Part shown: piece by piece, positions 21,504-49,080 of the stretch
How positions within the stretch are numbered: the first letter of the stretch is position 1
Layout: the number at the start of each line of letters is the position of its first letter
Assembly: GCF_014764505.1 (NCBI RefSeq)
Contig: NZ_JACXWX010000031.1
Coordinates: 1 to 54,098 of the forward strand
Direction: 5' to 3'
DNA: 54,098 nucleotides
DNA from: Phormidium tenue FACHB-886
Lineage (GTDB): Bacteria; Cyanobacteriota; Cyanobacteriia; Elainellales; Elainellaceae
Program-made: the position numbers and the translations under genes
The notes under the pieces: model-generated
Told to the model about the DNA's origin: nothing
Seen by the model: the letters and a program-made list of their open reading frames with translations, nothing else
The model's database searches: none

Positions 21504-21529
21504 GTACTTAGTTTGAAGTTCTTTTGTAC
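21504..21529. promoter_or_regulatory. Possible par operator with GTAC motifs
   Basis: TTGTACTTAG (21502-21511) and TTCTTTTGTAC (21519-21529) face each other about 120-150 bases upstream of parA. The second differs in one base from the TTCTTATGTAC motif arrayed at 24.3 kb. Autoregulation or a parS site is plausible. Confidence 0.4.
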
Positions 21530-22184: not shown

Positions 22185-23528
22185 TTATAACCCAGAAGGA
22201 AACGTTTCTGGAACCTCTTCGGCTTCAAGCTGATCTGGGCGATCGAGCGGCTCTACTGCCTGTGTATCATCAATGTGGATCACAGCATCAAACTGTGCTG
22301 GAAGCCGAGACCAAAAGTAATGGCTTCTACGCTCAGTTTGCAGAGAGTAGATTACACCGATCGCCCTTTCCAAGCGCTGTTCTTGCAGTCCGATAACAGC
22401 TGAATTTTCCTGGCACAGATTCAGCCAGAAACGCGGCAATTCAACCTGATGAAAGACTGCTTCATAGCTTTCAGGCAAAGCCGGACGAACTTGCTTAAAC
22501 TCCGGTGGATCGCCCCAGTATGAGGCAGCGGCTACTGTGCCGCTATAAGTAGTGAAACCAATCAAGACGGCATTTTGCCCATATCGTTCTCGCACTAGTT
22601 GCCCCAAATTCCACTCGCCTGCTTGTTTCATATCGGTTGCCCGTGCATCTCCGATGTGGGAATTGTGTGCCCAAACGACGATCTTGGGCTGTTTTCCCTG
22701 TTGTGCAATGTGAATAGCAAGATGTTCTAAGGTTTCTGCCATATGGCGATCGCGTAGATTCCAGGAACTTTGCTGCCTTTGAAACATCGAGCGGTAATAG
22801 GCTTCTGCATTTTTAACTAAACGGGCATTCTGCTCCACGTAGAAAAAATCATCTGCCCCATGTCTACCCCGTTGGGCATATTCTTCTCTGCGTCGCTGCA
22901 ATTCCAGCAGCTGATTGATCGCTTCGTCTCCGCAGGAATGACTTAATTCATGGGTGACAGCATATCCGTAGCTTTGCGAGTCTTCGCCGGCATGGTCAAA
23001 GCAGGAATAACGGTGCCGTGCCCGTGTTGCCGCTTCAGGATCGATCTGATCTAAATATTTCAGCACTGCTTCCATCGAAGCATACATGCTGTAGAGATCC
23101 AGCCCATAGAATCTCACTTTTGCTCCATAATCTAGCAGAGCATCGTTAGACTGGCGCAACCAGGTCAGGAAGTTCAATACATCCGTATTTCGCCACATCC
23201 ACAGTGGAAAGTCCTGAAAGTCCGCTAGTGCGTCAGTTGCAGTTGCATCTTCACTGGTGTTTCGGACGAAGCGATCGACTCGGTCGGCGTTAGGAAAGTC
23301 TGCTTCAACCGCCACCGCAATGAAGCCTTTCTCCTGAATCAAGCGTTTTGTAATTTCTGCTCGCTGCTGATAAAACTCGTGGGTTCCGTGCGTTGCCTCC
23401 CCAATCAACACAAACTGAGAATCACCTATAAATTTCAGCAGAGGATCATAATCTTGCTCTGACTCAGTTAAGGGATGAGCTACTTGCCGAATTGCATTAA
23501 CTATACTGGGGAGCGCCTCGTGCGACAT
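22185..23528 (-). CDS. Erythromycin-esterase family hydrolase
   Basis: 447 residues from the ATG at 23528 (MSHEALPSIVNAIR). A further 17 upstream codons are open but less likely. Family signatures: FVLIGEATHGTHEFYQQRAE with catalytic Glu and His, VAVEADFPNADRVDRFVR, and WAHNSHIGDARATDM. Erythromycin esterases use the GEATHG His to hydrolyse the macrolide lactone. Most environmental members have unknown substrates and many cyanobacterial ones sit beside phosphoribosyltransferases, which is not the case here. Antibiotic resistance should therefore not be assumed. The gene is monocistronic, converging with 21824-22138. Confidence 0.88.
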   Translation of the reverse strand: MSHEALPSIVNAIRQVAHPLTESEQDYDPLLKFIGDSQFVLIGEATHGTHEFYQQRAEITKRLIQEKGFIAVAVEADFPNADRVDRFVRNTSEDATATDALADFQDFPLWMWRNTDVLNFLTWLRQSNDALLDYGAKVRFYGLDLYSMYASMEAVLKYLDQIDPEAATRARHRYSCFDHAGEDSQSYGYAVTHELSHSCGDEAINQLLELQRRREEYAQRGRHGADDFFYVEQNARLVKNAEAYYRSMFQRQQSSWNLRDRHMAETLEHLAIHIAQQGKQPKIVVWAHNSHIGDARATDMKQAGEWNLGQLVRERYGQNAVLIGFTTYSGTVAAASYWGDPPEFKQVRPALPESYEAVFHQVELPRFWLNLCQENSAVIGLQEQRLERAIGVIYSLQTERRSHYFWSRLPAQFDAVIHIDDTQAVEPLDRPDQLEAEEVPETFPSGL

Positions 23529-23648
23529 TACCTTTAGCCTCCTGATAGGTCTGTATAACTCAATCTCGTTGCGAATCACTAAGGCATCACCCAGGACCGG
23601 AATGGCAGCTCATATCTGTTATTCAGATCCGTTATTCAGATCCCTTAT

Positions 23649-24110
23649 TCAGCGAAACTCCTGGAGCAACAAAACAGCCCAGGTGCTAATAAAGAGTAAC
23701 GGCACAACGATCGCTGGCATTTGAGCCAAGCGACGGGTCACCGTTTTACCCTGAATTGGTGGAAAATGTTTTGTGGTATCGTCCTGGGGATACACCTGAA
23801 ATGTGGTCCGTAAGGCAGCCATGTAAACGAGGGAAATTAGAATGCCGACATAAATGAGAATGCTGGTAACAAGAGAAATGCCAGGAATGATCCAGAGCAA
23901 AAGATCATGCACTTCCGCATAGCCATCATTTTCTGGATTTGGAGGTGAACTTAGCAAGGTCGCAAATCCGCTGAAGAAAAAGGATTGCGAAACAATCAGC
24001 CAGTTTACCCGTTGATTCATAGAATTATCTTCATTACTAATTTGCTCATGAATCAGCTGGTAGAAATCAGCTGTGGGTAAGGGTTTAGCAGGGTCAAGAA
24101 TTTCAGACAT
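23649..24110 (-). CDS. Small integral membrane protein, unknown function
   Basis: 153 residues. The acidic N-terminus (MSEILDPAKPLPTADFYQLI) is cytoplasmic. Hydrophobic segments lie at about 36-55 (FFFSGFATLL), 70-100 (a long double segment) and 130-150 (AIVVPLLFISTWAVLLL). The polar loop before the last segment contains TTKHFPPIQGKTVTRR. The helical-hairpin-plus-helix layout loosely recalls SLATT-type small membrane effectors, but the resemblance is not strong enough to name. It lies 120 bases from the next gene in the same direction and shares its orientation with parA/parB and the HTH gene. Confidence 0.65.
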   Translation of the reverse strand: MSEILDPAKPLPTADFYQLIHEQISNEDNSMNQRVNWLIVSQSFFFSGFATLLSSPPNPENDGYAEVHDLLLWIIPGISLVTSILIYVGILISLVYMAALRTTFQVYPQDDTTKHFPPIQGKTVTRRLAQMPAIVVPLLFISTWAVLLLQEFR

Positions 24111-24320
24111 TTTTTTAACGCTTTAACGGTTAATTGCCATTGCAAGCAGATATCTGAATGAATTGCTAAATCATAATGCCGAACCTGCTAGCGCAACGAC
24201 CGCTTTAAGAAATACACGATACCCTCCCCAACGGTAGGAAGAATGTTAACTTGAGGTGTATTTCATTAGAAGACAAATTACAGCATCACCGCTCTAAAAT
24301 TCTTTTAGCTAGTGCCTTGA

Positions 24321-24419
24321 TTTCTTATGTACAAAGCGCTTTCTTATGTACAAAGCGTTTCTAACGAAGCAGGGCTAAAAATCTAGATTTACATAAGAAA
24401 GCGCTTTGTACATAAGAAA
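24321..24419. repeat. 30-bp inverted repeat built from four TTCTTATGTAC motifs
   Basis: The arms 24321-24350 and 24390-24419 are exact reverse complements. Each arm contains two motif copies 19 bases apart: TTCTTATGTAC at 24322 and 24341 pointing right, and GTACATAAGAA (the inner copy starts T instead of G) at 24389 and 24408 pointing left. GCGC at the centre of each arm separates the copies. A related array lies at 30026-30111. The site lies just beyond the stop of the HTH gene at 24533-26482. Candidate roles are a centromere, a recombination site or an operator. Confidence 0.85.
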
Positions 24420-24532
24420 AATATTCTCTTGTTTCAGAGCCAAGAGACGATTACCTTCCAACATAAGGCTTGTTTGTTCAAGTCTTATTGCATAGGCGAT
24501 TAGAGCGATCGCAACAGTTGCTACGGTTACAG

Positions 24533-26482
24533 CTAGATTTTCAGAAGAGCTTGGATTTGGTTCTGGTGTTTTGGCTGAATCACCCGTTCGCCCTTGACCC
24601 AGCGGGTAATGAGCGATCGATCAACACCCAAGTTCTTTGCCAGTTGCGCCTTCGACCAACCTTTAGCATCTAGAGCAGTCAGCAAATCTGCCCCTGTGAG
24701 TACTTTCGATCGTTCTAATGAATTGCCTAATGAATTATCTACTAAGGCAAGTGGTTCAGATTTCTGCTTAGTAACAGATCGGACAGCTCCTAATTTCTCC
24801 TGAATCAGCACTGTTGGCTTAATCGTGACGATTGCTTTTAGCCAAATCGATAGCCAGTTACGAGGACGAGTTCTCAGGTTTTCAGGTTCATTCGCCAAGC
24901 TCCACTCAGGTCTAATACAGTCTGGATAGGTCGCTGCATCAAATTCGATCTGCCACCCTAATTCATGCAACGTCAACAGCGCATTATCCCATTGGGTAAT
25001 TAGCGTATTCCGCCGCTGTTTATTATTTTGAACCGTCTCAATTAGCTCTTTTGGTTCCAGGCGTTCCAGCAATGTTCCCACTTCATAACGGCCATCCCGT
25101 CGGATCCGGCTCATAATGGTAAGGAAAATTGCAAGTTTAGACGCTAATCGCTGACGATATGGATTGATCTGTAATGTACTCTTTGCCAAATAGCCATACT
25201 GACAAAGCGCTTCTTTGCCCCCGTTCAGGTCTTTTGCGTTAAGAAACTTTTCTGTCCAGCTTCCGGGTCGCACTTTGATGTATAGTTCGTCTGGATCGCC
25301 TGCCTCGTAGTGAATTGAGCCGGGTTGATCTACATCCACTGTTAATGCAAGTTGCCCTGCATATTCTAATTCTTCTAGTAGCCACATCGCGCCTCTAGCA
25401 ACGTTGTAGCGATTGGCCCCAACGTTGATGTTGCTGATGAAAACTGACAAGCTACAGACAAGCTCAACCAGATGACCAATTTTTTTCAGCTTTTGTCCCA
25501 AATTGATATCTGTTCGCTTATCCCAGCCAAACAGCCTAATTAAATCTGTTCCTTTTAGTCGGATCTGCTGCTCCCAAGGTTCATCTGAATCAGTTGCATA
25601 TGACGAAAAGATCAGCAAAACATACGCTGCCTCCGGACCGAATTGCTGAATGATTTCCCATGCTGCTTTACCTGGAACCAGCTCAAACTGCTGGTTTGTA
25701 GAACTCTGGCGAACGATATTGTGCTGAATGAAACCATCTCCAACTAGCTTTTTCCAGTAGGGATATTCTCCATCCTGCCACTGACTATTAATTAGCGCCT
25801 GTGCTCCCGTTAAAATGGGATAACCTGTTGCCACCCGTTCAAGTTCTCGTCCCCCGAATAAGGCAGGATCAGCAACAAAAGAGGCTGTTGAACGAATTCC
25901 CAAAAGCTTTTCAACGTCCTCAATTGAAAATCCTGAAAGATCCAGGCTCTGCAACCATTCGCTTGCAGTGTAGAAAGCACAGGCGCTAATAGCGATCGAT
26001 TCCCGCCAAGCCTCTTCTTCCGGCAAAGTAGAATCAGTTTCAACTGACAAGACCCCCGGAATTGAGCAGTCCTTCGGCATCCGCCCTTGAGTTTTCCATT
26101 GATCTAAGCGTGTTAAAATCCAGTTCGCTGTTTGTTCCCAAAAAACTTCCTTTTTCAAGACTGCCTTAAATAGCTTCTCCAAACGGGCGATCGCCTGCTT
26201 CTGCAAAGCGCCAATCTTTTCGGTTTCGCTGTAGAGATTGATCACATCTGCATCTGCATCTCCCTGGAGCCGCATCTGTCGCAACCGGTGTTGATTGATT
26301 CCGGTCGCTACATTAATCAGCACCAAATTAAGGAATGACCTGCCACAGCGTAGTTTTTCTATATAGGCTTGTAGCCGAGCTACTTCAGCATCTGTTGAGG
26401 CGATCGAAGCTTGCTCCACCGATACAACAACTGCGGAGCAGGGCTGCGTATTCTTCTTGCGCTTCACTCCATTTGCGGGCAT
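24533..26482 (-). CDS. Large plasmid-module protein with C-terminal XRE-type HTH (putative replication or control protein)
   Basis: 649 residues, no recognised catalytic domain. The C-terminal 55 residues form a clear lambda-repressor-like HTH: LLTALDAKGWSKAQLAKNLG then VDRSLITRWVKGERVIQP. The long middle is helical with Trp-rich patches (RESIAISACAFYTASEWLQS, WSLANEPENLRTRPRNWLSI) and charged N-terminus (KRKKN). It is transcribed away from the iteron array, divergent from the primase-like Rep gene, with the GTAC-motif inverted repeat right behind its stop. The position argues for an initiator, a copy-number regulator or an iteron-binding protein. That is inference from context and the HTH. 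No promoter was fixed, but its start is 180 bases from the first iteron. Confidence 0.7.
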   Translation of the reverse strand: MPANGVKRKKNTQPCSAVVVSVEQASIASTDAEVARLQAYIEKLRCGRSFLNLVLINVATGINQHRLRQMRLQGDADADVINLYSETEKIGALQKQAIARLEKLFKAVLKKEVFWEQTANWILTRLDQWKTQGRMPKDCSIPGVLSVETDSTLPEEEAWRESIAISACAFYTASEWLQSLDLSGFSIEDVEKLLGIRSTASFVADPALFGGRELERVATGYPILTGAQALINSQWQDGEYPYWKKLVGDGFIQHNIVRQSSTNQQFELVPGKAAWEIIQQFGPEAAYVLLIFSSYATDSDEPWEQQIRLKGTDLIRLFGWDKRTDINLGQKLKKIGHLVELVCSLSVFISNINVGANRYNVARGAMWLLEELEYAGQLALTVDVDQPGSIHYEAGDPDELYIKVRPGSWTEKFLNAKDLNGGKEALCQYGYLAKSTLQINPYRQRLASKLAIFLTIMSRIRRDGRYEVGTLLERLEPKELIETVQNNKQRRNTLITQWDNALLTLHELGWQIEFDAATYPDCIRPEWSLANEPENLRTRPRNWLSIWLKAIVTIKPTVLIQEKLGAVRSVTKQKSEPLALVDNSLGNSLERSKVLTGADLLTALDAKGWSKAQLAKNLGVDRSLITRWVKGERVIQPKHQNQIQALLKI

Positions 26483-26661
26483 AGCTCAACCATAATTCAG
26501 AATGCAAATAGTATACTCGCAGCTCGAACTGCCGATAATTCGGCGCAAGAGATGCTTTGCAGCAGGTCAACAAAGTGGATTATGTCAACAAAGCAATTGA
26601 TCCTAAAAATGCTCAGAACTCTTTCAGCACAACTGTTTCGCTGATAGCCAAAATTGAGTAA

Positions 26662-27430
26662 TGTTGACAGAAACTCTAGAATCTAGTGACTTATTGTCTA
26701 GAATCTAATGACTAATTTCTACTGGGCAGCAGCCCATCTCAAGCCTTTTCTAACCAAGCTTAAAGCCTTAAATCAGCCTGAATCCTTACATTTCATTCCA
26801 GTGCTTGTTTTGTCAGCAGCGTAGCCGGCGATGCAACATTTCACAAAACTTTACATTTTCACTGATGTTGACAATGTTGACGCAGAGTCTAGAATCGCCT
26901 GACCAAAACCTGAAAAATATCAGCGTCAGAAATTCTGTCTTCGAGCCATCCTGCTGATGTTGACAGTGTTGCCAAAAGCTCTAGAATCCCCTGACTTTAG
27001 CTCAAGTCGTCTCTAGAATCAGAAGTGCTGATAGTTGTGGGCCTAGTTTTATGCTGAGCTGAATGGCTCAAAAAAGGTTGTCAATTTCCAAAGCTGTTGC
27101 CACTAACTCTAGAATTCTCAGACCTCTCCAAGCACTTTCAAGTGTTGACAGCGTTGCCAAAAGCTCTAGAATCGCCTGACTAAGTTAGTGTCTTTAGATA
27201 GCTGCAGCGATAGCACCGCAATATTGTTGCCAATGTTGCCAAAAGCTCTAGAATCGCCTGACGTTATTAGACAGCTCAACGCAAAAGGGGATATTTTTGG
27301 AATTGCCCGCGTTGCCAAAAACTCTAGAGTGCAGTGACTAGTACCAAGATTCCGTTGACAATTAGCTCTAGAATGCCATGATCAAAATTCCTGAATCGTC
27401 TGACTCCTCTTCTAGGATCGAATGACTTGC
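26662..27430. repeat. Iteron array, likely replication origin
   Basis: About ten spaced direct copies of a 30-bp unit: TGTTGCCAAAAGC, then TCTAGAATC, then GCCTGACT. Best copies start at 26662, 26875, 26967, 27095, 27152, 27234, 27310 and 27353; weaker ones are at 26696, 27009 and about 27401. All lie in the same orientation, spaced 34 to 180 bases apart. Several are preceded by a half-copy TGTTGACA, giving doublets such as TGTTGACAGTGTTGCC. The conserved palindromic centre is TCTAGA. No protein-coding frame crosses the array. Direct repeats of this kind between divergent replication genes are typical of plasmid origins controlled by iteron binding. Confidence 0.85.
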
Positions 27431-27582
27431 TTTTTCTTAGATACTATCCCCAACTTAATTTCAACCGTTGTTGACTCGCTGATAGTGTCAACTAGATCAG
27501 GCTCATTAACCCGCTAAGAGCCTTGTCTGGTGCGTGTTATACGTGCATTATTCCAGCTTTTTCCTGGAGTAGTGTTGTCAAT

Positions 27583-29457
27583 ATGCAATTGAAAAACTCT
27601 TTATCCTTTAGAGGAGTGCGTGAATGGGAGAATCAGTTCCTTGCACTCTTCCCCCACCGATTTGACTATATTTGGGCAGAGCATCCAAGCCAAAGCGCAT
27701 CTGTTGAATGGAAAACAGAAAGCCGGCACCCCTTAAGCGATCGCCTTATCCAACAGGGTGCCTACCTCTATGGCGTCCGCTTTGGTGCTGAAACAAACTA
27801 CTGTCTCCTCGACATTGACACTGCTAGCCTTTATCACCCGAAGCAAGACCCACTCGCCATCTCACGAATTGCTGCCGCACTGGAACCCCTTGGACTTGTC
27901 AGCTATACAGCTTGTACGTCTAGCTACAGCGGCGGTTTACACCTTTATTTTCCCTTCCCACAGACCCAAAGTTCTTGGCAGTTGGCGATCGCCCTTGCTT
28001 GTTTACTCGAAATTGCTGGTTTCAAACTCCAACCCGGACAACTTGAAATCTTTCCCAACCCAAAGCCCTATGTAACTGACGGCACCTTGAGTCTATTCAA
28101 TGCCCATCGATTGCCGCTGCAAATCGGTTCCTATGTGCTGAATGAAGCATTTCAACCCATTTGGAGTGACTCTCATACCTTTGTCAGCCAGTGGCAGCTT
28201 GCCCAGCAGCGTAACGATATTGATAGCAAAACGCTTAAGCAAATTCTCAAACAGTCAAGGCGAAAGCATTTTGGTATTTCAGGAAAAGCCGAGAAATTTA
28301 TTAATGACCTTAATGCTGAAATTGAACTGGGTTGGACAGGTAGTGGACAAACCAATCGGCTCTTAGGACGAATTACGATGAGAACCTACATCTTTCACCA
28401 CATCTTTTCGGGCGGAGAACCGCTAAAAGGGGAAGCACTCGTAGATGAAATTGTGGAAACCGCTCGATCGCTTCCCGGATATGAGGAATGGTGTCGCCAC
28501 CAACACGAGATCGAACATCGTGCAGAAGAGTGGGCAAGATGTATTGAGAATAGCCACTACTTTCACTTTGGCGATCAGCACAAGAAACCAAAGCTGGAAG
28601 TGCAAGATCCAGAGCTAACGGCTGCCATTGATCAATCTCCATCCTGGAATCAGCGCCGATCTGCTGCAACTAGAGATCGAATCCGACGAGCGATCGCCAA
28701 TCTGCTAGAAACCAATAGTCTTCCTGCCAAACCAACTGCTCGATTCCAAACCTTGCTGAAATATGGCATCGGTGGTGCATCTTTGTATCGTCATCGCGAT
28801 CTCTGGCATCCCAGCTATTTTGGCGTTGATCCTGATCAAAATATTGGAAATATATTGGAACGCTCTGTAGAAGTGCATGCATACTTCAATACGGGCAGCC
28901 AGGTAGATTGTATTGAAAGCAAATCTAACTGGCATAGCCCGTCAAGCTTATTACCTATGAATGATGGTGATAAGGCGCCTGACAAGGCTTCTAGCGATTG
29001 TACTGATTCCAGCAGCCTTCCTAATCCCAGTAATCTTTCTGTTCATTTTCATGCTCATTCTGCTCAGCCCTCAAGTACACAGCCTTTGCAGGGTATGCAA
29101 TACGTTCAACAGGGGCTGTCCAGTATCAAAGCCTCTCAACAAACCTTTCAGGAGGTAGCTCGTACCGTGCGTTGGCAGGCTCTCTCTGAAGGGAAATCGC
29201 AGTATCCATCTGATAAGGCTGATGTAGCAGAACGGCGACAGATTGAGCGGATGCAGCAATTTCTAGACTCTGGTGATCCAATCCTAGTTGCGGAGGCGAT
29301 GGCATGGGCAGTCAAGCGGGGTGTTTTGCACCTGAGTCAGCCTCAACTACCGCTACCAACGGATGCCCAAGGATGGCAGCCAGATCGCCCTCAGATAGCT
29401 GACCAAGGGCGATCGCAATTGCAATTTAGGGAGGGTAGGAATGGTCAATTGGAGTAG
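27583..29457 (+). CDS. Replication protein with archaeo-eukaryotic-primase-like domain
   Basis: 624 residues from the ATG at 27583 (MQLKNSLSFRGVREWE), which is preceded by GGAGTAG; a TTG 60 bases upstream is less likely. Catalytic motifs of the AEP superfamily are visible: D77-I-D79 (YCLLDIDTASLY), SSYSGGLHLYF with H120, then GQLEIFPNPK and FNAHRLPLQ. Known proteins of this type in cyanobacterial plasmids prime or replicate the plasmid. The middle (about 240-330) is helical, and the C-terminal half is Ser/Gln-rich and low complexity, with no clear helicase motifs. It lies directly behind the iteron array, which supports a role in initiation. Confidence 0.8.
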   Translation: MQLKNSLSFRGVREWENQFLALFPHRFDYIWAEHPSQSASVEWKTESRHPLSDRLIQQGAYLYGVRFGAETNYCLLDIDTASLYHPKQDPLAISRIAAALEPLGLVSYTACTSSYSGGLHLYFPFPQTQSSWQLAIALACLLEIAGFKLQPGQLEIFPNPKPYVTDGTLSLFNAHRLPLQIGSYVLNEAFQPIWSDSHTFVSQWQLAQQRNDIDSKTLKQILKQSRRKHFGISGKAEKFINDLNAEIELGWTGSGQTNRLLGRITMRTYIFHHIFSGGEPLKGEALVDEIVETARSLPGYEEWCRHQHEIEHRAEEWARCIENSHYFHFGDQHKKPKLEVQDPELTAAIDQSPSWNQRRSAATRDRIRRAIANLLETNSLPAKPTARFQTLLKYGIGGASLYRHRDLWHPSYFGVDPDQNIGNILERSVEVHAYFNTGSQVDCIESKSNWHSPSSLLPMNDGDKAPDKASSDCTDSSSLPNPSNLSVHFHAHSAQPSSTQPLQGMQYVQQGLSSIKASQQTFQEVARTVRWQALSEGKSQYPSDKADVAERRQIERMQQFLDSGDPILVAEAMAWAVKRGVLHLSQPQLPLPTDAQGWQPDRPQIADQGRSQLQFREGRNGQLE

Positions 29458-29593
29458 CGCGATCAGCCGCGGGGTAAGTAGAACAGGGGCGATCGCCGTG
29501 GAAGCTGAATGTGCCTGTTAGAAGCGGTTTCTATCCAATTAGTTCTAGCTGAAGAACCTTAAACTGTATCGGTTTGTGTTTTCAAATAATCCT

Positions 29594-29604
29594 GTACTTA
29601 AGAA
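29594..29604 (-). repeat. Isolated GTAC motif before the DUF6788 gene
   Basis: GTACTTAAGAA is the leftward form of the motif arrayed at 24.3 and 30.0 kb, with one base changed. It ends three bases before the ATG at 29608, so a protein bound here would block translation initiation or transcription of that gene. Confidence 0.5.
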
Positions 29605-29607
29605 CCT

Positions 29608-29955
29608 ATGCCCAAGTGCTATGACTTCAACAAACTCCGCACTGCACTACACAGCCTTCCCTTAGAGCAGGCAAGGCAACTGTATACCGAGCTAGGTGCG
29701 ATTGTGCAAGAACTAGAACAACAATCATCCACTCCGACGGCAGTTCAAGCAAAAGGGCGCGAAGTTGCCGAGGCAAGACACATTGGCGATTACCTTTACC
29801 AGTTCGAGCGTGTCCGTTGTGGCAAAGTGGGATGTAGGTGTGCGGGGGAAGGTGGCGAATTGCATGGACCTTATTGGTATGCCTACTGGCGAGAAGATGG
29901 CAGACTCAGGAGCCGCTATATAGGCAAACGATTTCGGCAAATTGAAGCAGAGTGA
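29608..29955 (+). CDS. DUF6788-type small protein with zinc-ribbon-like C-terminus
   Basis: 115 residues. The N-terminal half is a charged helix (LRTALHSLPLEQARQLYTEL) with a likely coiled coil. The C-terminal half carries RCGKVGCRCAGEGGELHGPY and WYAYWREDGRLRSRYIGKR, a CGKxGCxC cysteine cluster plus an aromatic patch common to DUF6788-like proteins. Members of this family often accompany mobile elements; the function is not known. Here it sits just inside the right-hand GTAC array, 150 bases behind the primase gene, and may belong to the mobile module. Confidence 0.75.
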   Translation: MPKCYDFNKLRTALHSLPLEQARQLYTELGAIVQELEQQSSTPTAVQAKGREVAEARHIGDYLYQFERVRCGKVGCRCAGEGGELHGPYWYAYWREDGRLRSRYIGKRFRQIEAE

Positions 29956-30025
29956 GTACAGAGGAGGGTACCTGATCCTGTAATAGGATGACTTCTGTGG
30001 ACTTTCACCAAAGCCCTTTGACTAT

Positions 30026-30111
30026 TTCTTAGGTACAAATTTGCATTCTTAGGTACAGCTTCACTCGCCTGGTGTTATCTGTACATAAGAGTATAGAGTT
30101 GTACCTAAGAA
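30026..30111. repeat. Right-hand array of four TTCTTAGGTAC motifs (two right, two left)
   Basis: TTCTTAGGTAC occurs at 30026-30036 and 30046-30056, 20 bases apart. The inverted forms GTACATAAGAG (30081-30091) and GTACCTAAGAA (30101-30111) are again 20 bases apart. The order two right, two left matches the array at 24321-24419, which has 19-base spacing. A partial TTCTTAGCG lies near 30132. The two arrays bracket the HTH gene, the iterons, the primase-like gene and the DUF6788 gene. Confidence 0.85.
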
Positions 30112-30216
30112 GCTTGGGAATGGTTTTTCCATTTCTTAGCGAATCATAAAACCAATGATGAGATTCAAGACTTTCAATATGGGGATAGGAACCTTGAGCA
30201 GAGTGGTGAAATGGAT

Positions 30217-30837
30217 TTAGATTCGTTCTAAATATGATTTAATTTCCTTCTCAATATACTCAAAATCCTCATAGTGGTTTACAAAATCTAGATGGTCTGT
30301 TTCTATAGCTAATACTGGACATATCTTGAAATGCTTTATCCATTCCTCGTAAAAAGCATTAAGCTCTGTCAAATATTTCTGATCAATCTTCCGTTCCTGA
30401 TAGCGATCGCGCTGTAAGATTCTACTCATCAGTACAGGAACAGAGGCACGCAGATAAATGACAAGACTGGGCGATGGCAGCAGACGAATAAGTTCGTTGT
30501 AGAAACTGCGATATAAGAACCAATCCTCTGCGTTGATATAGTTCTTCTGGTAAAGATTCTGAGCAAAAATGTCTCCATCTTCATAAATACTCCGATCCTG
30601 TACGATCGACTGCTCTCGCATTAGTAGGGGCTTATAGCTGCGAAGGCGACACATTAGGAAAAACATTTGTGAGTGAAATGCCCACTGCTGCGGATCGTCC
30701 TGGAAATCCGCAAGGTATGGGTTAGCTTCGGCTTGCTCAAGAATGGCTTGCCAGCCCAACTTATTGGATAGCATTGAGGTTAAGCTCGATTTTCCAACTC
30801 CAATATTGCCTGCGATCGTCACAAAGTAGTTAGCCAT
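30217..30837 (-). CDS. Deoxynucleoside kinase
   Basis: 206 residues from the ATG at 30837 (MANYFVTIAGNIGVGKSSLT); a TTG two codons upstream is the alternative. The P-loop GNIGVGKSS is at about 9-17. ANPYLADFQDDPQQWAFHSQ and the DRSIYEDGDIFAQN box with its Asp-Arg-Ser match the dNK/dGK family. The LID arginines are in LQRDRYQERK. It phosphorylates deoxynucleosides (probably dA/dG) to salvage dNTP precursors. It lies next to a plasmid replication module and could supply precursors, but the link is only positional. Confidence 0.88.
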   Translation of the reverse strand: MANYFVTIAGNIGVGKSSLTSMLSNKLGWQAILEQAEANPYLADFQDDPQQWAFHSQMFFLMCRLRSYKPLLMREQSIVQDRSIYEDGDIFAQNLYQKNYINAEDWFLYRSFYNELIRLLPSPSLVIYLRASVPVLMSRILQRDRYQERKIDQKYLTELNAFYEEWIKHFKICPVLAIETDHLDFVNHYEDFEYIEKEIKSYLERI

Positions 30838-48802: not shown

Positions 48803-49080
48803 CGATTGCGTCTTCAATATCCTCTGCGATCGTTTCTTCCGTTTTGAGCGCATCCATTGCCACTGGGTAGGCGGCATTTTTGTCTATAGCGCTACGCGCT
48901 TATGTTAAGACACTGTTTTTATGTAAAAGTCCCGCGAAGCGGGACTTTTACATAAAAACAATTTTGATTTAGGCACGTAGTGCCATACATTGATAACTCG
49001 TGGGGTTTGAGTATGTTGTGCCTTGAACACCTTGCGGAAAAATTGCCCTACTGCCTTGCTGTCGCATCTCTTAAAAGAGT
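48803..49080 (-). pseudogene. IS6-type transposase relic split by a foldback element
   Basis: On the minus strand the fragment reads RCDSKAVGQFFRKVFKAQHT then QTPRVINV, is interrupted from 48986 to 48886, and resumes exactly with DKNAAYPVAMDALKTEETIA. These are catalytic-core sequences of IS6-family DDE transposases: the D of VINVD and the AAYP stretch. Removing 48886-48986 joins VINV and DKNAAYP in frame. Past about 48818 the sequence no longer looks like IS6 (IEDAIAELPLGSIQRQ). No N-terminal HTH or C-terminus is present. It is dead. Confidence 0.8.
48886..48986. mobile_element. 101-bp foldback (MITE-like) element inserted in the transposase relic
   Basis: The centre is a 22-bp perfect hairpin (48914-48935 and 48939-48960, loop GAA; arm core AAAAGTCCCGC). 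The outer ends are an imperfect inverted repeat: ATAGCGCTACGCGCT at the left and, reading the other way from the right, ATGGCACTACGTGCC. The boundaries are defined by the restored transposase frame. The element has no coding capacity. It interrupts the gene and would also stop transcription in both directions. Cyanobacterial short palindromic elements often have similar TAGCGCTACGCGC ends; I cannot name the family. Confidence 0.8.

Follow-up and report, generated by a model that had tools for sequence, protein, structure and literature searches.

Motif arrays at the ends of a cyanobacterial replication module as probable binding sites of DUF6788, a candidate autoregulatory protein

The contig NZ_JACXWX010000031.1 of the cyanobacterium Phormidium tenue FACHB-886, whose 54,098 nucleotides were analysed as a whole and are called here the window, carries a replication (rep) module bracketed by two arrays of a short motif. 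These arrays are quite probably clusters of binding sites for the product of a small gene of the module, DUF6788, an uncharacterised DNA-binding protein that would regulate its own expression. The gene (29608-29955, plus strand) codes for 115 amino acids with a match to PF20586 (E=2.7e-9), and it is the proposed source of the protein that reads the arrays. As deduced from the sequence, each site would span about 12-14 bp and resemble TTTCTTATGTAACA, with TTCTTA(T/G)GTAC as the form found in this clade, and the sites would be used mostly as convergent pairs. They are probably read by the C-terminal four-stranded β domain of the structure model, with its set of three cysteines and one histidine. 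Where its own gene is concerned, the protein most likely acts as a repressor of transcription, bound to sites that lie within or close to the core promoter. That DUF6788 and the motif belong together can be taken as very nearly certain.

The left array (24321-24419) holds two motif copies pointing right, at 24322 and 24341 on the plus strand, followed by two pointing left, at 24389 and 24408 on the minus strand; the copies read TTCTTATGTAC, except for the one-mismatch copy TTCTTATGTAA at 24389, and those of each pair are 19 bp apart. The right array (30026-30111) has the same order, with copies at 30026 and 30046 on the plus strand and at 30081 and 30101 on the minus strand, 20 bp apart within pairs; its sites read TTCTTAGGTAC, with one CTCTTATGTAC, and the copy at 30081 has one mismatch. 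A motif search thus reproduced the positions, orientation and spacing that a first-pass annotation of this DNA had given for both arrays, and folding bore out its description of the left one as a 30-bp perfect inverted repeat. That annotation had also listed two single copies, both present with one mismatch each: a weak site about 140 bp upstream of parA (21519-21529, plus strand) and the site TTCTTAAGTAC directly 5' of the DUF6788 start codon (29594-29604, minus strand), which occupies the position taken by the right arm of an upstream pair in several relatives. It had seen no further close copy in the window and missed a weak one-mismatch site 5' of the primase gene (27434-27444, plus strand). 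With at most one mismatch to TTCTTATGTAC or TTCTTAGGTAC, the window contains 11 sites, the densest cluster having four within 120 bp, and 300 dinucleotide shuffles of the window yielded a mean of 1.2 sites and clusters never larger than two. When up to two mismatches were allowed, the motif was at chance level (24 found vs 18.4 expected, equalled in 13 of 100 shuffles). The exact 12-mer TTCTTAKGTACA occurs at nine places in the 8.93-Mb genome, six of them in the window, two on contig C16 and one on C68.

The link to DUF6788 was drawn from a scan of 84,980 species genomes, in which 372 relatives were found and the best 80, from bacteria and archaea, were analysed; pairs were scored if convergent and within 700 bp, with one mismatch allowed per site. 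A convergent TCTTATGTAA pair was present within 700 bp of DUF6788 in 47 of the 80 loci, as against 2 of 73 distant control windows, and the divergent order was found in one of the 80. Sixty shuffled motifs gave a mean of 0.017 loci with a pair and a maximum of one. The exact motif was found in 65 of the 80 loci and an exact pair in 43. The spacing between the arms is broad (19-61, mode 36), and tandem copies lie 18-22 bp apart. DUF6788 is the sole common factor of the loci and its neighbours vary, being the rep primase and a helix-turn-helix (HTH) gene in many cyanobacteria, zinc-uptake genes in Methanothrix, and ERF in Methanothermobacter and Bipolaricaulota.

The association extends to plasmids and to some viral contigs. 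Seven of the 29 plasmid records with a DUF6788 match were examined, namely four from Leptolyngbya and one each from Tunicatimonas (Bacteroidota) and the archaea Methanothermobacter and Haloquadratum, and all seven carry exact pairs, one to five on each. The 20 exact pairs on these plasmids are all intergenic, nine being in tandem, five in divergent and six in convergent gaps, according to a PLSDB gene table that is incomplete. None of 50,697 phage records matched DUF6788 (tblastn, E<=0.01). Thirteen relatives were found among viral contigs via one peptide pattern, and the motif occurs in five of these contigs, each with at least 12 sites close to the gene. In the viral contigs L123, L125, L128, L129 and L130, many copies lie in the DUF6788 reading frame or at its edge; those of L123 and L125 form 15-bp tandem repeats whose in-frame reading gives LPKTP- or LPKTS-like units.

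Within the same genome and its family, the pairs could be related separately to DUF6788 and to the rep genes. The genome has three DUF6788 genes, on contigs C16, C181 (the window) and C189. Each of these contigs also bears convergent pairs, as does C197; of the two C189 pairs one is a terminator-like hairpin, and so is the pair of C197. Contig C16 bears a paralogous module of HTH, primase and DUF6788 genes, with arrays of two right and two left copies on both sides, the counterparts of the left and right arrays of the window being at L013:5187-5261 and L013:11298-11401, respectively. The rep primase has homologues at seven places in the genome, itself included, and its five further copies without DUF6788 (on C227, C90, C1, C223 and C239) are accompanied by no pair. 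Of 36 family genomes, 32 have the primase, 13 have DUF6788 and 13 have exact pairs; the pairs are present in 10 of the 13 genomes with DUF6788 vs 3 of the 23 without it (Fisher p=2.3e-4), and in nine of those ten a pair shares a contig with DUF6788. One genome scored as a miss, G025, has no exact pair within the spacing limit and contains a wider-spaced array of two plus two copies (L204:14944-15123). Since the pairs track DUF6788 across the family, they are linked to this gene and not to rep. The first-pass annotation had named the absence of the arrays from relatives that keep the rep genes as an observation that would count against its proposal; such absence was found in part, as the primase is far more widespread than the pairs, and what the pairs follow is DUF6788.

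The motif itself varies along with the protein. Four variants, TCTTATGTAA, TCTTATGTAC, TCTTGTGTAA and TCTTAGGTAA, were mapped on the DUF6788 tree, using those 63 of 80 loci at which one of the four is present and leaving out all other rows. On this tree, in which many forks are unresolved and near-copies inflate the clustering, five changes suffice, vs a mean of 31.5 after shuffling, and none of 200 shuffles was as low. In genome G019, three DUF6788 matches, one of them below the Pfam cut-off, each lie beside a different main variant. Residue 68 is basic in 42 of the 49 proteins whose motif has T at base 6 vs 1 of the 14 with G, and residue 69 is arginine in all nine proteins with G at base 5 and valine, isoleucine or threonine in all 54 with A. 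These two patterns suggest that DUF6788 reads the motif bases directly via residues 68 and 69. An archaeal subclade of the family has a motif two bases longer (TCTTATATGTAAT), also as a convergent pair (L064:3611-3657 and L066:3563-3607).

The position of the sites relative to promoters points to autoregulation in some clades. In eight Chloroflexi loci, the sequence upstream of DUF6788 has the form TTGAC[CA]-TCTTAGGTAA-N7, followed by TATAAT in seven cases and TACACT in one, with the -35 and -10 elements seventeen bases apart; the site occupies the start of the spacer, so that the left site is upstream of the -10 element, and a clear right arm lies 3' of that element in four of the eight. As judged by eye, a TATA-like stretch lies between the arms of each of the 12 archaeal upstream pairs, which all come from Methanotrichaceae, and the arm spacing is 36 in 11 of them; five viral contigs have TATATA between the arms. 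This promoter layout appears to be that of an autorepressor in some clades and is compatible with one in the rest, and we grade autoregulation by DUF6788 as likely. In the Methanothrix loci L096, L103, L104 and L118 and their relatives, zinc-uptake ABC genes (znuACB-like) follow DUF6788; the genes downstream in L096 match ZnuA, an ATPase and an ABC-3 permease by Pfam, and homologous clusters are found in other Methanothrix loci. DUF6788 is a candidate regulator of zinc uptake in these methanogens.

In the window, the replication module lies between the two arrays. Its left end is the gene of a 649-amino-acid protein with a C-terminal HTH (HTH_3; 24533-26482, minus strand), followed by iteron-like repeats containing TCTAGAATC, a putative origin (26660-27420; nine copies of TCTAGAATC were counted in the window), and by the gene of the primase-like protein (27523-29457, plus strand), for which a Prim-Pol match is weak and below the Pfam cut-off (E=0.017) and no NCBIfam family matches at E 0.01. 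The layout was mapped at 24 loci, nine of which have the head-to-head order of HTH (minus), primase (plus) and DUF6788 (plus), namely the window, L013, L043, L044, L045, L046, L047, L049 and L084. Motif copies are found past the 3' end of the HTH gene in five of the nine modules (L084 offers only about 580 bp there) and past DUF6788 in seven, L046 and L047 having only two rightward copies. They lie beyond both ends in five (the window, L013, L043, L045 and L046), so the bracketing of the module seen in the first-pass annotation recurs. The gene beyond the module seems to differ from one to the next, although the genes were not aligned, and the arrays therefore look like part of the rep module. 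By analogy with KfrA and StbA (see below), DUF6788 on these sites would, on plasmids, perhaps insulate the module or bridge its two ends. Insulation, bridging, partition and fork arrest may all be considered as roles of the end arrays, and any specific one of them is doubtful at best.

Several observations weigh against the arrays being operators of a DUF6788 autorepressor. The exact motif is missing from 15 of the 80 loci. Among these, an expanded form of 12-13 bp (TCTTATATGTAAT...ATTACATATAAGA) is present in L064 and L066, half of the site in L106, L109 and L111, and, seven bases 5' of TATAAT, a copy with one mismatch in L120; no clear form of the motif was recognised in the remaining ones. 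Four of the eight Chloroflexi promoters have no clear right arm. The -10 score between the arms (98 vs 75.0 in shuffles, reached in none of 5000) is carried by the Chloroflexi: in the 22 upstream pairs left without them, it is 67 vs 59.7 at offsets 16-18 (98 of 2000 shuffles as high) and 94 vs 86.3 anywhere between the arms, a weak excess (18 of 2000 as high). For the link between residue 68 and base 6, the independent pairs are too few to give a test corrected for phylogeny any power. In the window itself, the region upstream of DUF6788 retains one recognisable site (29594) and no recognisable promoter, and no σ70-like promoter was seen in or beside the arrays (24050-24560 and 29440-30260 scanned), for which reason ordinary σ70 operators were rejected there. 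The DUF6788 gene and a deoxynucleoside kinase gene converge on the right array, which separates their 3' ends. Together with the 6 of 20 plasmid pairs that lie in convergent gaps, this array indicates that simple promoter operators do not explain everything. Among the family genomes, three without DUF6788 carry a pair, one of which is GC-rich and terminator-like, and in G035 the only pair is on a contig other than that of DUF6788, a control pattern having matched once there too. Pairs on contigs on which DUF6788 was not found occur in G005 (C50, C55), G007 (C57), G018 (C364), G019 (C88), G000 (C197) and G035 (C65).

Other explanations of the arrays were weighed against binding by an autoregulatory DUF6788. 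The first-pass annotation had proposed a centromere for the ParB of the window or operators of the HTH protein, and the proximity of both genes and the weak site near parA speak for it. However, pairs are present at loci without a ParB-like neighbour within 6.5 kb, such as those of Methanothrix (more distant ParB genes were not sought), the motif is abundant where no HTH gene is adjacent, and three distant HTH homologues of this genome that lack DUF6788 (L205, L206 and L209, 27-30% identity) have no motif pair nearby. Because the motif occurs without those neighbours and follows DUF6788, either association has the slimmest chance of being right; operators were the right kind of answer, with probably the wrong protein as binder. 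DUF6788 and its arrays might alternatively form a partition or stability locus, the arrays being centromere-like in the manner of stbDRs and StbA and autoregulation being secondary. Many members of the family are plasmid-borne, several plasmids have three to five pairs, 10 of 103 loci have a ParB-like cluster no more than 6.5 kb away from DUF6788, and motif copies flank the rep module in the five modules named above; moreover, StbA and KfrA are examples of single plasmid DNA-binding proteins in which promoter sites go together with maintenance (PMC3098194; PMC7783346). Partition makes little sense, in contrast, in nine of ten Methanothrix-type genomes (1.7-3 Mb), each with a single pair per genome, upstream of DUF6788, and most with zinc-uptake genes downstream (the tenth, G335, has five pairs), and the window already encodes its own ParAB. 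We consider it unlikely.

If convergently bound DUF6788 halted RNA polymerase or replication forks, the module-end arrays would be polar roadblocks comparable to Tus/Ter and RTP, in which a small DNA-binding protein is likewise encoded beside oriented sites; tus and rtp are autoregulated and adjoin their sites. The near absence of the divergent order would fit, as would the location of sites between convergent genes and immediately beyond 3' ends. This proposal is nevertheless quite improbable, since sites occur in promoters too, as those of Methanothrix and Chloroflexi appear to do, unlike Tus/Ter and RTP, and plasmid pairs are about equally common in divergent and convergent gaps. That the arrays act as RNA or cruciform hairpins, whether terminators or REPIN-like units, is a very poor prospect, despite the folding of the arrays of this genome: all four exceed shuffled sequences in folding, with z of -10.5 (window-left), -13.5 (C16-left), -5.5 (window-right) and -4.2 (C16-right), the two left ones form perfect inverted repeats of at least 30 bp, and two motif pairs of the genome are terminator-like. 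Over 96 pairs, complementarity beyond positions -2 to +11 is roughly what composition alone would give, and the spacers are unmatched in 8 of 10 double arrays (1 to 5 of 10-11 positions); Rfam gave no family over its cut-off, with only sub-threshold matches of miRNA, snoRNA and snRNA type. The loss of pairing outside the site, together with the left Chloroflexi site upstream of -10, argues that the element is DNA and not RNA, and the hairpin candidate was rejected, the exceptions to the loss of pairing being the two left arrays of this genome. These two (24321-24419 in the window and L013:5187-5261) have the only perfectly matched spacers among the ten double arrays, and their matched spacers differ from each other.

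The DUF6788 protein of the window matches PF20586 at 37.5 bits, vs a cut-off of 27.2, over profile positions 31-70 of 103. Its structure model (predicted local distance difference test score, pLDDT, 87.5; 90.2 for the C-terminal domain alone) has two N-terminal helices followed by four β strands, and residues C71, C76, C78 and H86, between strands 2 and 3, are invariant in 69 aligned sequences. No convincing solved relative was found by sequence (best E 0.31). Foldseek gave nothing at E<=0.001 with either the complete model or the domain alone, and the Z values of the VIA structure comparison, at most 4.4 and 4.8, exclude nothing. Integrase arm-type DNA-binding domains scored Z 3.6 (3rmp, 51 residues, 3.9 Å) and 3.4 (3jtz, 50 residues, 3.0 Å), values that tie with unrelated kinases and propellers, and DUF6788 has no attached recombinase domain. 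A search of a PubMed Central collection found no paper that mentions DUF6788 or PF20586, and among the matches listed for the motif strings none concerned such arrays.

Known plasmid proteins nonetheless offer parallels. The promoter of KfrA of RA3 carries, around its -10 element, five 9-nt repeats in two orientations; KfrA is described as self-repressing and needed for stability (PMC7783346). Likewise, StbA of R388 binds site arrays around its own promoter (PMC3098194). The likeness to KfrA is that of a plasmid DNA-binding autorepressor whose operator binding is needed for stable maintenance (PMC7783346), and that to StbA and the stbDRs lies in one protein with arrays of short sites at its own promoter and more copies in other promoters of the maintenance region (PMC3098194). 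DUF6788 differs from both. KfrA consists of an N-terminal HTH and a long α-helical tail, which do not appear in the predicted 115-residue β-sheet protein with its two helices, four-stranded sheet and Cys3His set, and the site of DUF6788 is nearly the same in bacteria and archaea. The DUF6788 sites are convergent pairs with direct copies 18-22 bp apart, unlike those described for StbA. By analogy, then, DUF6788 would work like KfrA and StbA, although the structure prediction makes it another type of protein.

These results would give DUF6788, a domain of unknown function, a concrete and testable task and a DNA target predictable from sequence alone, and they link an unstudied cyanobacterial plasmid rep module, as well as the Methanothrix zinc-uptake genes, to a candidate regulator. 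It is unusual for a protein and its site to be so alike across cyanobacterial plasmids, Chloroflexi and methanogenic archaea, and the evolution of specificity could well be studied on a domain this small that has natural motif variants. In a wider and rather improbable picture, DUF6788 would be an undescribed class of small zinc/β-sheet DNA-binding proteins whose site has changed very little across bacteria and archaea and whose gene-plus-site unit moves between hosts; it would repress itself and, on plasmids, mark both ends of the rep module, where it would shield or meter replication by acting as a roadblock or a bridge, and in Methanothrix it would control zinc uptake, perhaps sensing zinc via the Cys3His set.

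Further observations were made in the course of the analysis. The window has an erythromycin-esterase-like gene at 22185-23579 that matches PF05139 (E=5.9e-129) and scores well short of the NCBIfam Ere cut-offs. At G000:C189:39638-39680, at G000:C197:9259-9299 and at 48916-48958 of the window, there are terminator-like hairpins in which the lower part of the stem is identical or nearly identical to the motif, through kinship with DUF6788 sites or by chance. Finally, the 1.3-Mb metagenome-assembled genome G345 (Bipolaricaulota MAG-26) carries twelve pairs on several contigs, and the spacers and neighbours of some of them are very like those of the Methanothermobacter plasmid pRMAS01, a likeness that reflects either a shared plasmid or contamination.

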